From NCBI RefSeq assembly GCF_000226975.2, contig NZ_CP019285.1:1116001-1180000 (forward strand): DNA of 64,000 nt. Direction: 5' to 3'. Under the pieces are notes generated by a model. The model had not been told where the DNA came from. It saw only the letters and a list, made by a program, of their open reading frames with translations, and made no database searches. This stretch comes from Halobiforma lacisalsi AJ5 (GTDB taxonomy: Archaea > Halobacteriota > Halobacteria > Halobacteriales > Natrialbaceae). A program made the position numbers and the translations under genes. Below, piece by piece: positions 35,943-41,280 of the stretch. Within the stretch, counting starts at the first letter, position 1; the number at the start of each line of letters is the position of its first letter.

Positions 35943-37001
35943 TCAGGTCCCGTCGGTCTCTTCGTTCTCGCCGTCTCCCGTCTCCGATTCGTTTCCTTTT
36001 TCGTCGCCTTCCCCGCCTTCGTCGGTTTCCTTGTCTTCCTCGTCTTCGTTGTCTTCGTCGTCCTGGTCGCCCTCGTCGTCGCCGTCGGTTTCGTCCGCGG
36101 CTTCTTCGTCGCCGTCTTCGGCCTCGGACTCGCCGCCTTCGGGTACCTCTTCGACCTCGACGTCCTCGCCCTTGACTCCGCTCTTCGAGATCACGGGCGT
36201 GAGGTTGTAGTCGTTCCCCTGCCCGCGCTTGACCACGTTGATGTCGAACACGAAGTCGACGGACTCGCCGGCCCGAACTTCGAACGGCTTGGTGAGCTGT
36301 AGTTTCTCGGACGGGACCTTCACGGTGGCTTCGGCGCCGTCGACGATCCCTTCGACGTCCGCGACGTGGAGTTCGATCTTTTGATAGGTCCCTTCCGACA
36401 GGTCGAGTTCGCCGACCGGCATCGCTTTGTCGCCGACGACCTGCGTCAGATCTACGGTCGCGCCCTCGAGGTCGACGACGTAGAACCCGCGCTCCTCCTC
36501 GTCGTCTTCCTTTTCATTTTCATTTTCATTTTCCTTTTCCGCTTTCTCGTCGTCCGCGTCCTCGGTGTCGTCTTTCTCCGTGTCGCTTTCTTCCTCCTCG
36601 CCGTCCGCAGTATCGTCTTCCTCTTCTTTCTCGTCGTCCACCTCTTCCTCGTCGCGTTCGTCTTCTTCGTTTGCGTCGTCACCTTCCTGTTCTTCCTCTT
36701 TTGCGTCCTCGGCCTCGCCATCGAAGATACGGGCGCTGTCGAGGGTGACGTCCAGTCTGTCGAAGTCCCCGATGTCGGCCGGCATGTCGCTGATGAGCAA
36801 CCGGAAGGTCCCCGTGGAGTCGTCGGTATCGCCGTCGTCGCTGTCGCCGTCGGCCGACTCGCTTCCCGAGTCCGAGCTACAACCGGCGAGTAGCGTCGCA
36901 CTCACGCCTCCGCCGGCGGCGAGAAACGTCCGGCGGTCGACGCCGTGATCGAACGACCAGTCGGCTCGATCGCGATTCGGGTTCGACTGCTTTTCGGTCA
37001 T
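35943..37001 (-). CDS. DUF4382-type Tat lipoprotein with a large acidic insert
   Basis: 352 aa from the ATG at 37001 (a start three codons earlier is possible). Tat motif DRRTFLAAG and lipobox LLAGC (C41) predict lipid anchoring outside the cell. The DUF4382 domain begins at about residue 64 (GTFRLLISDMPADIGDFDRL) and resumes at about 172 (GFYVVDLEGATVDLTQVVGD) to about 275. Between lie about 75 residues (96-170), nearly all Glu, Asp, Lys and Asn. A second acidic tail of about 70 residues ends the protein. The DUF4382 role is unknown. The acidic parts may bind cations or form a flexible surface brush (inference). Confidence 0.8.
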   Translation of the reverse strand: MTEKQSNPNRDRADWSFDHGVDRRTFLAAGGGVSATLLAGCSSDSGSESADGDSDDGDTDDSTGTFRLLISDMPADIGDFDRLDVTLDSARIFDGEAEDAKEEEQEGDDANEEDERDEEEVDDEKEEEDDTADGEEEESDTEKDDTEDADDEKAEKENENENEKEDDEEERGFYVVDLEGATVDLTQVVGDKAMPVGELDLSEGTYQKIELHVADVEGIVDGAEATVKVPSEKLQLTKPFEVRAGESVDFVFDINVVKRGQGNDYNLTPVISKSGVKGEDVEVEEVPEGGESEAEDGDEEAADETDGDDEGDQDDEDNEDEEDKETDEGGEGDEKGNESETGDGENEETDGT

Positions 37002-37361
37002 GATCGTCACGTTTCACGGCGGGGAAAAAGGAACGACGATCGTTCGGTCGCTTTCGCCGGGTAGAACGGTTCAAGATCGTTTTTAGGGCACTGATAGCGG
37101 CCGTCCCCCTCTCCTCGAGTTTCGGGTCTCGTGGTCACTCGGCCGGAAAACCGGGATAACTGCGCGACTCCCGATCGGATCCGGGAATGCCGGTCCTTTC
37201 GAGCGCCGTCGCCCCTCGAGTCGTTCACGTTTTTATAGACGGTGACGGTCCACGACGTCACCTGCCGGCCATCGACGGGCTGCCGGACGTATCGGCACCA
37301 TCGATTTCTCTGGCGGACAAACCCCACAAGAGACTTGACGGTCAGTTTCGAGTATACGTCC
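37002..37361. other. Divergent intergenic region
   Basis: 360 bp between the DUF4382 lipoprotein and the PGF-CTERM protein. It holds a good TATA-like run tttttata at 37229-37236 (plus), about 125 bp before the chosen GTG, so a leader of about 100 nt or an alternative start must be considered. A T/A run near 37078-37085 could serve the minus-strand gene. No gene seen. Confidence 0.45.
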
Positions 37362-39464
37362 GTGAACTACCGGGTCGTGTTCGCGGTCGCGCTGCTCGTG
37401 GCGTCTCTCCCTGCCGGTATCGGCGGCGTCGTTCTCGGCACCGGATCGGCCTCGCCAGGGGCAAGCGTCGGCGCTACGGATCGAACACAGCAACTCGAAC
37501 ACGTCGGCCCCGACCCCGACCCTGACCCCGACTCCTCGACCCCGTCGGTTTCCGGCTCGAGCGACGTCCTTTCCTACACGACGGAACTGCGACAGATACC
37601 CAAGAAACCGACCTACGAGGCCGAGATCCGCTTTTCGGTGCCCGACTCGGTCTCCGAGGTCGAGGTCGACCTCGACCTCGAGGGGACGGCGGAGGCGACG
37701 GTCCGGTCGGCGGATGGGTTCGAATCGACCGCCGACGGTGTGTACCGCTGGACGGGCGAGACGGCCGCACCGTCGCTTCTGGTGACATTACCTGCGAACC
37801 GGACCGGCCACGACGACCGCCAGTCGCCGACGGTCAGCGAGCGCGACGATGGCTACTCCTTCGTCGACGCCGGCGACTGGGCGATCGTCCCGGTCCCGCA
37901 GCTTCGTGTCTACGCACAGGGGAGCGAGCCGGTCGGCCTCGAGTCGTCGGCGACGGTCGACGGTTCGGGGGCGACCGGGGGCGACGTCGCCGTCTTCGGC
38001 GAGGTGACCGAGTACGAGCGACTCGTCGAGGGCGAGCGCCTCCGGCTCGTCGTCCCCGCGGCGGCCGACCTGCAGGAGGCGCCGGACGACGTCCTCGAGA
38101 CGCTCGCGGCCGGCAGTCAGCGCCTCGCGGTCGGCGAACGGCCCGACGAGACGTTCGTCGTCGCGGCTCCGACCGGCGTCGACTGGGGCTCGCGCGGCCT
38201 CCAGTACGGCGACGCCGACGCGTGGGTTCGCGCGGACGCGCCCCTCGACGAACCCGACAACGTCTGGCTCCACGAGTACGTCCACGTCCGACAGGCCTAC
38301 GCCGGCTCGCCCGACGCCACGGCAACCGACGCAACATGGCTCGTCGAGGCCCAGGCGGAGTACCACGCGGCACAGGTCGCCCTCGGGACGGGACTGATCG
38401 GCTTCGAGGAGTTCGAACGCTTCCTCGAGCGCGGCGAACGGTCGCCGTACGCCGACGGGATCCTCGCGGAACCCGGAAGCTGGGACGACCCCCACACCGA
38501 TTACGTGCAGGGCCCGCTCGTCTACGGCGAGATCGATCGACGGCTCCGGGTTGTGACCGACGGCGACCGTACCCTCGTGGACGTCTTCCGAACGCTCAAC
38601 GCCCGCGCGGCGAACGACCGGATCGCGGCGGCGGACTTTTACGCGGCCCTCGAGGAGGCGGGCGACGCGTCGGTCCGCGAGGCGGCCGAACGCTACGCGG
38701 AAACCAAGGCCCTCCCCTCGATGTGGAGCCGCGGCGAACACGAGGCGGCGTTCGACCAACCGGTACCGGCGATCGACTACGGCCACGCCGACCCGCCGCT
38801 CGCAGTCGACGGCGAACCCTGGGAGCGCTGGGAGACCGACGAGGGTCGGCTCGCGGCCGTCCCGGCCGGAACGACCGTCGCCGTCCCCGTCGAGGTCGCA
38901 AACGTCGGGGACCGCGCGGGGAGCTACGACGCCACGCTACAGGTCGACGGCGTACCCGTCGACCGCGCCCAGGGGAGCCTCGAGACGGGCGAGCGCGCCA
39001 CGGAACGGCTCTCGTGGACGCCGCCCGAACCCGGCACGTACGAGCTCCGGGTCGGTTCCGAGACGACGACTGTCATCGTGCGCGCGCCCTCGAGCGTCGC
39101 GGTGGCCGACCTCGACCTCGAGCCGCGGGAGATCGACCCCGGCGAGTCGGCCGCAGTGACGGCGACGGTCGAGCCGGCCGACGACCGGCCCGCCGCGGCG
39201 TTCGTCGCCGTCCGCACCCACGAGGGCGTCGTCGCCGAGGCACCCGTCGCCGTCCGGGCCGGCGAGACCGCGACGATAACTCGGGAGGTCCGGTTCGACG
39301 AAGAGGGACGCCACGAGGTCGCCGTCGGCGACCGTGTCGTAACGGTGACCGTCGGGAGCCTGCCGCTCGCCGAACTCGAGGAAGTGCCCGGGTTCGGCGT
39401 CGGCGTCTCGCTCGCGGCGCTCGCGGCCGTTCTCGCAGGGCTGGTCGCGTTCCGACGGCAGTAG
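37362..39464 (+). CDS. PGF-CTERM-anchored gluzincin-like metallopeptidase
   Basis: 700 aa from the GTG at 37362. An N-terminal signal helix (VVFAVALLVASLPAGIGGVV) is followed by a mature start rich in Asp/Pro and a beta-rich domain. A zinc protease motif HEYVH is at residues 304-308, followed by WLVEAQAEYHA, whose glutamate could be the third ligand as in M1-type enzymes. A CARDB-like Ig domain and a second beta domain follow. The end (about 676-700) is PGFGVGVSLAALAAVLAG plus FRRQ, the PGF-CTERM signal cut and lipid-anchored by archaeosortase ArtA. Probably a surface peptidase; the substrate is unknown. Upstream in-frame codons to 37242 are judged non-coding. Confidence 0.82.
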   Translation: MNYRVVFAVALLVASLPAGIGGVVLGTGSASPGASVGATDRTQQLEHVGPDPDPDPDSSTPSVSGSSDVLSYTTELRQIPKKPTYEAEIRFSVPDSVSEVEVDLDLEGTAEATVRSADGFESTADGVYRWTGETAAPSLLVTLPANRTGHDDRQSPTVSERDDGYSFVDAGDWAIVPVPQLRVYAQGSEPVGLESSATVDGSGATGGDVAVFGEVTEYERLVEGERLRLVVPAAADLQEAPDDVLETLAAGSQRLAVGERPDETFVVAAPTGVDWGSRGLQYGDADAWVRADAPLDEPDNVWLHEYVHVRQAYAGSPDATATDATWLVEAQAEYHAAQVALGTGLIGFEEFERFLERGERSPYADGILAEPGSWDDPHTDYVQGPLVYGEIDRRLRVVTDGDRTLVDVFRTLNARAANDRIAAADFYAALEEAGDASVREAAERYAETKALPSMWSRGEHEAAFDQPVPAIDYGHADPPLAVDGEPWERWETDEGRLAAVPAGTTVAVPVEVANVGDRAGSYDATLQVDGVPVDRAQGSLETGERATERLSWTPPEPGTYELRVGSETTTVIVRAPSSVAVADLDLEPREIDPGESAAVTATVEPADDRPAAAFVAVRTHEGVVAEAPVAVRAGETATITREVRFDEEGRHEVAVGDRVVTVTVGSLPLAELEEVPGFGVGVSLAALAAVLAGLVAFRRQ

Positions 39465-39487: not shown

Positions 39488-40066
39488 TTACGCGACTGAA
39501 ACCCGGAACCGGCAGGCGTCGCTCTCGGCTTCGTCCTCGCCGTCGCCGTCGCCGTCACCGCGGCCGTAGGCACAGTCGGTCTTCGTCACGGTCGCGTCGG
39601 CGTCGAGGGCTGCGGCCAGCCCCTCGAGGATCCCGTAGGCCAGCCAGCAGTACCCCCGCTCTCGTGGCGATCGGTAGGTGACGATCACCGGCCCCTCGTC
39701 CGTCCGGCGACCGGTGACGTCGGGGAGCGTGACGTCGTCGACCCCGACCTCGAGTTCCTCGTAGGCCGTCCCCAGCGTCGTCAACAGCGTGGCGAGGTCG
39801 CCGTCGGTCGAGACGTGCGCGTCGAACGTCGAGAGCAGTTCCGGGGCGAGGGTCCGGCCGAAGTCGCGTTCGACCCGGCGCCTGTCCTCGTCGGCGAGCG
39901 TCGAGAGGGCGTCGAGAGCGTCGTCGACGTCGGCGTCGTCGTAGCGCGAGACCGGGAGGTAGAGGGTCGACTCGAGGCCGGCCCGCTCGGCGACGGCGTT
40001 CCAGGCGTCCTCGCCGGCCCGGTCGACGACGTACTCCTTCAGGGTCTTGTGGACGATTCCGTGCAT
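39488..40066 (-). CDS. H-NOX (heme NO-binding)-like protein lacking the proximal histidine
   Basis: 192 aa. The start MHGIVHKTLKEYVVDRAGED and the motif YRSPR (Y131, S133, R135), which in H-NOX proteins holds the heme propionates, fit the family and its numbering. However, the proximal heme ligand, H102 in bacterial H-NOX, is Y102 here (codon TAC at 39761-39763, in TTLGTAYEEL). Heme may thus be bound by tyrosine, bound weakly, or not at all. The C-terminus has a Gly/Asp linker and a last strand (CRFRVSVA). The family normally senses NO or O2, and no partner kinase or cyclase is adjacent. Confidence 0.75.
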   Translation of the reverse strand: MHGIVHKTLKEYVVDRAGEDAWNAVAERAGLESTLYLPVSRYDDADVDDALDALSTLADEDRRRVERDFGRTLAPELLSTFDAHVSTDGDLATLLTTLGTAYEELEVGVDDVTLPDVTGRRTDEGPVIVTYRSPRERGYCWLAYGILEGLAAALDADATVTKTDCAYGRGDGDGDGEDEAESDACRFRVSVA

Positions 40067-40284: not shown

Positions 40285-41148
40285 TTACAGACGGTCCGCA
40301 AGGACGGGCGCGACCGAGACGGCGCTCGAGCCGCGTTCGATCGTGTCGGTGCCGTAGATCGCCTCGACGCCGGCCCGCGAGAGTTTCGCGTACGCGTCGC
40401 GGGCGAGCAGCGGGTGCACGCAGGTGACGAATACGCGGCCGACGTCGCGCTCGCCGAGGACGCCCACGGCCTCGCTCATCGTCGATCCCGTGGCGATGAT
40501 GTCGTCGGTGACGACGACGTCGCGTCCGGCCACGTCGACGTCGCTGGGCGTGATCTCGACGTCGGTGCCCGAGTGGCGGGTCTTCTCGAAGTAGTCGACC
40601 TCGCCTTCGCCCTCGCCGTAGGCGTCGCGGACCGTCTCCGCCAGGTCGACCGCGCCCGCGTCGGGTGAGAGAAAGACGGGATCCGTGAGATCCGCGGGCA
40701 GCGGCTCCGCGAGGCGACCCGCGGCGTCGACGGCGGTCGCCGTCGGTTCGAAGAACTCGCAGACGGCTTCCTCGTGGGGGTTGACCGTCAGCACGCGATC
40801 GGTCCCGCTCGAGACGGCGCGGGCGACCGCCCGCGCGGAGACGGGGTGGCCGGGCTCGAAGGCCTCGTCCTGGCGCGCGTAGCCCATGTACGGAAGGACC
40901 GTGACGACCTCGTCGGTCCCGGCTTCGCGGACGGCGTCTTGCAACTGGAGGAGTTCGAGGTGGGCGTCGCTCGAGACGGTAGAGCCGACGACGACCGCCC
41001 GATCCGGGTTCGCCTCGGCGACGCCGGGCGCGGCCGCGAGCAGTTCGCCGTCGGGAAACCGGTCGTACGCGACTTCGGCGAGCGGTACCTCGAGTTCGTC
41101 CGCGAGCGCGGCGGCGAGCGCCTGCGACGCGGATCCGCTGACGATCAT
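40285..41148 (-). CDS. prs: Ribose-phosphate pyrophosphokinase (PRPP synthetase)
   Basis: 287 aa from the ATG at 41148 (MIVSGSASQALA); 26 longer in-frame codons are rejected. It makes PRPP from ribose 5-phosphate and ATP, the precursor for purines, histidine and tryptophan. It has the catalytic flexible loop EKTRHSGT and the ribose-phosphate loop DDIIATGSTMSEAV. The ATP site is in LPYMGYARQDEAFEPGH, and NPHEEAVCEFF holds the metal histidine. Short archaeal form. Upstream of the H-NOX-like gene on the same strand, but 218 bp apart. Confidence 0.95.
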   Translation of the reverse strand: MIVSGSASQALAAALADELEVPLAEVAYDRFPDGELLAAAPGVAEANPDRAVVVGSTVSSDAHLELLQLQDAVREAGTDEVVTVLPYMGYARQDEAFEPGHPVSARAVARAVSSGTDRVLTVNPHEEAVCEFFEPTATAVDAAGRLAEPLPADLTDPVFLSPDAGAVDLAETVRDAYGEGEGEVDYFEKTRHSGTDVEITPSDVDVAGRDVVVTDDIIATGSTMSEAVGVLGERDVGRVFVTCVHPLLARDAYAKLSRAGVEAIYGTDTIERGSSAVSVAPVLADRL

Positions 41149-41280
41149 ACTCGGTCCCACAGCGCGGGACCTAAACCCGTTTTCGTTCTCTCGTTCTTCC
41201 ACAGCGGTTCGACGGGTTTCCGTCACGGTTCCCCGGCCCGCGCAGTGTCGGTCTCGAGACGCGCGACAGTCGGCGGCAGG

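Follow-up and report, generated by a model that had tools for sequence, protein, structure and literature searches.

The closest described systems are bacterial H-NOX proteins such as those of Shewanella oneidensis (So) and Vibrio cholerae (Vc), members of Pfam family PF07700 with a three-cysteine zinc site. The proximal histidine of H-NOX proteins was absolutely conserved across 598 sequences surveyed, and the zinc ligands of So H-NOX are Cys139, His161, Cys164 and Cys172 (PMC7108781). Oxidation of the matching cysteines in heme-free Vc H-NOX leads to inhibition of the partner kinase (PMC7108781), and in Caulobacter (Cc) H-NOX the inhibitory form arises from cysteine oxidation only, not from NO (PMC12329717). 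Among the cases described in the papers found, the sGC alpha domain alone lacks this histidine, and its role is still called elusive; the human sGC alpha H-NOX domain binds no heme (PMC8196705). It is thus the closest precedent for a His-less H-NOX protein.

In the literature searched, mostly without subscription journals, we found no naturally His-less prokaryotic H-NOX clade and no paper that combines H-NOX or heme NO-binding proteins with haloarchaea. The family is already annotated in Pfam, and a His-less prokaryotic branch of it appears to be new in that literature. Such a branch is represented in the window, a stretch of 64,000 nucleotides from Halobiforma lacisalsi AJ5.

An H-NOX protein with tyrosine at the proximal position

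The open reading frame at 39488-40066 (minus strand) starts with ATG and encodes a product of 192 amino acids, which the initial annotation described as H-NOX-like. Both profile and fold place it within the HNOB family. The protein scores 80.4 bits against PF07700 (HNOB; cut-off 25.5, E = 1.8e-22), and a profile search of the genome finds it to be the only HNOB gene. An AlphaFold2 model derived from a 74-sequence alignment (pLDDT 86, pTM 0.85) predicts an H-NOX fold, with So H-NOX (4u9b) as the nearest PDB structure in a Foldseek search (TM 0.84/0.89). Every one of the best 46 Foldseek matches is an H-NOX protein or an sGC chain containing an H-NOX domain.

Residue 102 of this protein is tyrosine, encoded by TAC at 39763-39761 (minus strand). 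In phmmer alignments, Tyr102 faces the proximal histidine of Shewanella H-NOX with a shift of one residue and His105 of Nostoc Alr2278 without gaps, and its placement by MAFFT agrees. The earlier reading of a tyrosine in place of the proximal histidine is therefore borne out by the alignments, as is the accompanying claim that the heme-propionate motif YxSxR is intact (Y131, S133 and R135; 39662-39676, minus strand). The protein thus combines the propionate motif of a heme-binding H-NOX with the loss of the heme ligand itself, which would be borne by helix alphaF (residues 91-108; 39743-39796, minus strand), a helix in the AlphaFold2 model.

Compared with So and Vc H-NOX, the window protein shares the fold, YxSxR, Pro115 and the positions of the cysteine triad, but lacks the proximal histidine and carries lysine in place of histidine or glutamine at the fourth metal position. 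Like the sGC alpha pseudo-H-NOX, it has an H-NOX fold without the heme-ligating histidine. The sGC alpha domain, however, has an N-terminal extension that fills the pocket, whereas the window protein starts at Met1 with no extension, is a stand-alone prokaryotic protein and keeps YxSxR.

A single His-less branch among haloarchaeal homologues

A sample of 394 genomes of the haloarchaeal class yielded HNOB matches in 85, at loci in genera that include Halobiforma, Natrinema, Natronorubrum, Halopiger, Natrialba, Natronococcus, Halostella, Halorubellus and Haloarchaeobius. A search of viral contigs with patterns from the window protein alone found no relative. From the fetched loci, 112 distinct proteins were aligned and the 109 complete ones were kept. 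The initial annotation had proposed a survey of homologues for histidine or tyrosine at residue 102, and this survey gives histidine in 42 of the 109 (hereafter His-type), tyrosine in 38 and other residues in 29. The 67 His-less members are full-length, distinct sequences from several families, with Y in 38, A in 9, V in 8, T in 7, R in 2 and S, I and L in one each.

In a tree of the 109 proteins built without the columns around position 102, the 67 His-less proteins group together on a single branch (SH-aLRT 100). Adding bacterial outgroups and a further nine archaeal H-NOX proteins, all of which have histidine, leaves this branch whole, and a single change between histidine and non-histidine suffices on that tree. 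Because the His-less branch is monophyletic and all outgroups bear histidine, the residue was, on this phylogeny, lost in one event. The outgroups lie on long branches, which leaves the exact root uncertain and the support for the His-less clade unaffected. Tyrosine is the state of all early-branching His-less lines, and residue 102 has since undergone at least 16 changes within the clade. The closest relative of the window protein is that of Halobiforma haloterrestris, at 93-94% identity.

Two circumstances that would have explained away the missing histidine can be set aside. A local mutation of His102 is ruled out by its absence across the whole 67-member clade, with the His-bearing homologues forming a separate paralogous clade. 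His84 (39815-39817, minus strand) is common to both clades, in 63/67 His-less and 32/42 His-type proteins; it is ruled out as a displaced proximal ligand, since in the latter 32 it coexists with the true proximal histidine. Outside the haloarchaeal class, archaea of the same phylum (loci L194-L202) carry strong His-bearing HNOB proteins of ~140-148 bits that lack the cysteine triad.

Genetic surroundings, constraint and the cysteine site

The window gene lies 218 bp downstream of prs, which encodes ribose-phosphate pyrophosphokinase on the same strand (40285-41226, minus strand; identified by Pfam and by tblastn of upstream flanks). By tblastn of the flanks, prs precedes the gene on the same strand at 64 of 67 His-less loci versus none of 42 His-type loci; apart from a single exception, the gap is 69-231 bp. 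On the other side lies a convergent gene for a CARDB-domain protein (Pfam; 37242-39464, plus strand), probably secreted, and at most His-less loci the neighbor on that side is likewise a convergent member of this gene family. An MCP-signal gene lies directly downstream at 30 of 42 His-type loci (a minimum, as some loci are short), versus none of the 67 His-less loci. Thus, the two types occupy separate genetic surroundings. The His-type proteins, which share family, phylogenetic neighborhood and cysteine triad with the window protein but retain the proximal histidine in all 42 cases, look like chemotaxis gas sensors.

The initial annotation was correct that no kinase or cyclase gene lies beside the window gene. 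No adjacent or fused histidine kinase, cyclase or MCP effector accompanies it and, unlike the So and Vc systems, it has no HnoK or other partner gene. The His-less type as a whole has no evident partner among its conserved neighbors. The single-gene context is nonetheless less puzzling than had been suggested, as it reflects a conserved prs-linked position.

Several additional features were noted in these regions. His-type HNOB genes with a downstream MCP-signal gene (L065, L048, L047, L058, L060 and others) are likely archaeal gas-sensing chemotaxis pairs, and tandem HNOB duplicates occur at L053, L074 and L097. In the window, an open reading frame at 35943-37010 encodes a DUF4382 lipoprotein-like product with very long acidic runs.

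Averaged over columns, entropy barely differs between the clades (1.53 and 1.54 bits). For alphaF, entropy is 2.10 bits in the His-less versus 1.24 bits in the His-type clade, making this helix the most relaxed segment of the His-less proteins (rank 1 of 148 windows of 18 residues). Conversely, residues 29-43 and 62-80 are tighter in the His-less clade than in the His-type clade. YxSxR is invariant in the His clade and no longer so in the His-less clade, where Y is present in 65/67, S or T in 66/67 and R in 63/67. Pro115 (39722-39724, minus strand), the conserved proximal-side proline, is kept in 65/67 His-less and 42/42 His-type proteins. The window gene and its Halobiforma haloterrestris orthologue differ with a dN of 0.034 and a dS of 0.107, and dN is below dS in every pair compared. 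Outside alphaF, the His-less branch is under purifying selection.

The alignment places Cys140 (39647-39649), Cys165 (39572-39574) and Cys185 (39512-39514, all minus strand) at the positions of So Cys139, Cys164 and Cys172, where they would form a putative zinc/redox site. This triad is present in all 42 His-type and in 60 of 67 His-less proteins. The third cysteine is set back by an acidic, low-complexity insertion of low pLDDT (39521-39562, minus strand), such that 20 residues separate the last two cysteines versus 8 in So H-NOX. Made of GACGGC-type repeats, the insertion recurs in the closest relative, the H. haloterrestris orthologue (L102), where it is even longer. The fourth metal ligand of So H-NOX, His161, precedes the second cysteine by three residues, and its place is taken in the window protein by Lys162 (39581-39583, minus strand). 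This position is Glu, His or Gln in all 42 His-type proteins (Glu in 39) versus only 32 of 67 His-less ones, which counts against the cysteine-site model favored below. Judging from the aligned residues, a metal site in the window protein is plausible, though altered, and may be structural. The seven His-less members without the cysteines indicate that the site is not essential throughout the clade. All seven also lack Tyr102, but this association comes down to two or three events, a number too small to establish a link between the two losses.

Candidate modes of action of the His-less proteins

We favor a model in which this H-NOX branch, having lost its heme-ligating histidine once, settled beside prs and has since passed largely by vertical inheritance under purifying selection. 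The protein would most likely work without a His-ligated heme while keeping the H-NOX fold, with alphaF released from heme-coupled constraint. The Cys3 metal/redox site (C140, C165 and C185) might then act on glycine-hinged subdomains to yield a conformational signal, as modeled on the proposal for heme-free Vc H-NOX, and a pocket ligand other than heme may contribute. We infer the absence of a functional heme, and likewise metal binding and redox or ligand sensing. The window protein probably senses something else, or senses differently, than its heme-binding cousins. We give an even chance to the composite reading of a stand-alone haloarchaeal pseudo-H-NOX that uses the cysteine site and perhaps binds something other than heme in its pocket; that sensing is redox-based and runs through the cysteines specifically is rather doubtful. 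More tentative than the composite is the broader proposal that this widespread archaeal branch gave up heme and gas sensing and was recruited to sense redox state or a metabolite without heme, in connection with the prs (PRPP synthesis) locus, which would make it the prokaryotic equivalent of the enigmatic sGC alpha pseudo-H-NOX. A small, stand-alone, naturally His-less clade, accompanied in some genomes by His-bearing paralogues, offers a direct way to ask how an H-NOX fold functions once heme is gone, and whether a cysteine/zinc switch can replace gas sensing.

Two observations count against a heme-independent protein: retention of YxSxR and Pro115 would fit a bound porphyrin, and tyrosine is found in all early branches as well as in the window protein. 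These same observations, together with the prevalence of tyrosine in the clade, favor an H-NOX in which Tyr102 ligates ferric heme in an otherwise intact pocket, with altered ligand preference. Moreover, PDB entry 2kil is by its title a structure of So H103G with heme in the Fe(II)CO form, indicating that the fold can hold heme without a protein histidine. Yet Ala, Val, Thr, Arg, Ser, Ile or Leu repeatedly replace the tyrosine in syntenic orthologues, which speaks against its ligation as the general mechanism of the clade, even if possible for Tyr-bearing members. Relaxed constraint on alphaF and the lack of a conserved signaling partner also speak against Tyr-ligated heme, which we judge distinctly unlikely. 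Of the two alternatives in the initial annotation, a Tyr-ligated or a heme-free protein, the former is weakened by a tyrosine that is present in only 38/67 members and so often exchanged, and the latter fits better. Heme held by another residue, either His6 or His84, or by YxSxR only with a water ligand, would draw on the same retained motif and on conservation of His6 (96%) and His84 (94%) in the His-less clade. However, His84 stands alongside the true proximal histidine in most paralogues, and neither residue is presumably on the proximal face in known H-NOX structures, making this arrangement very improbable.

The vacated pocket might instead bind a small aromatic or lipid in the manner of V4R/Bet3-like proteins, with a structural Cys3 site as in the phenol sensors MopR and DmpR. 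In both sensors the zinc site is of the Cys3-Glu type, and the V4R domain and MetOD1 are profile-related to the haloarchaeal proteins and share a cysteine cluster. Of the 74 alignment members, 9 of which are His-type, 61 match V4R with E <= 0.1 (6e-12 at best) and 45 match MetOD1; TRAPPC3 also appears in the profile search. The window protein itself scores only as HNOB in Pfam, and a profile search with V4R (PF02830) found no match in it or in its genome. The same V4R-like cysteine motif occurs in His-type proteins and so is not peculiar to the His-less clade, and no degradation gene is linked. We consider this binding mode unlikely. That the gene is a decaying relic is scarcely credible given the many full-length sequences, conserved synteny and purifying selection; with dN below dS in all pairs, degeneration is not supported. 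The simple-sequence acidic insertion in Halobiforma would suit decay, as would the syntenic gene of one congener (G052, L050, 4795-5322), which is broken over three frames and is itself a probable pseudogene or a sequencing error.
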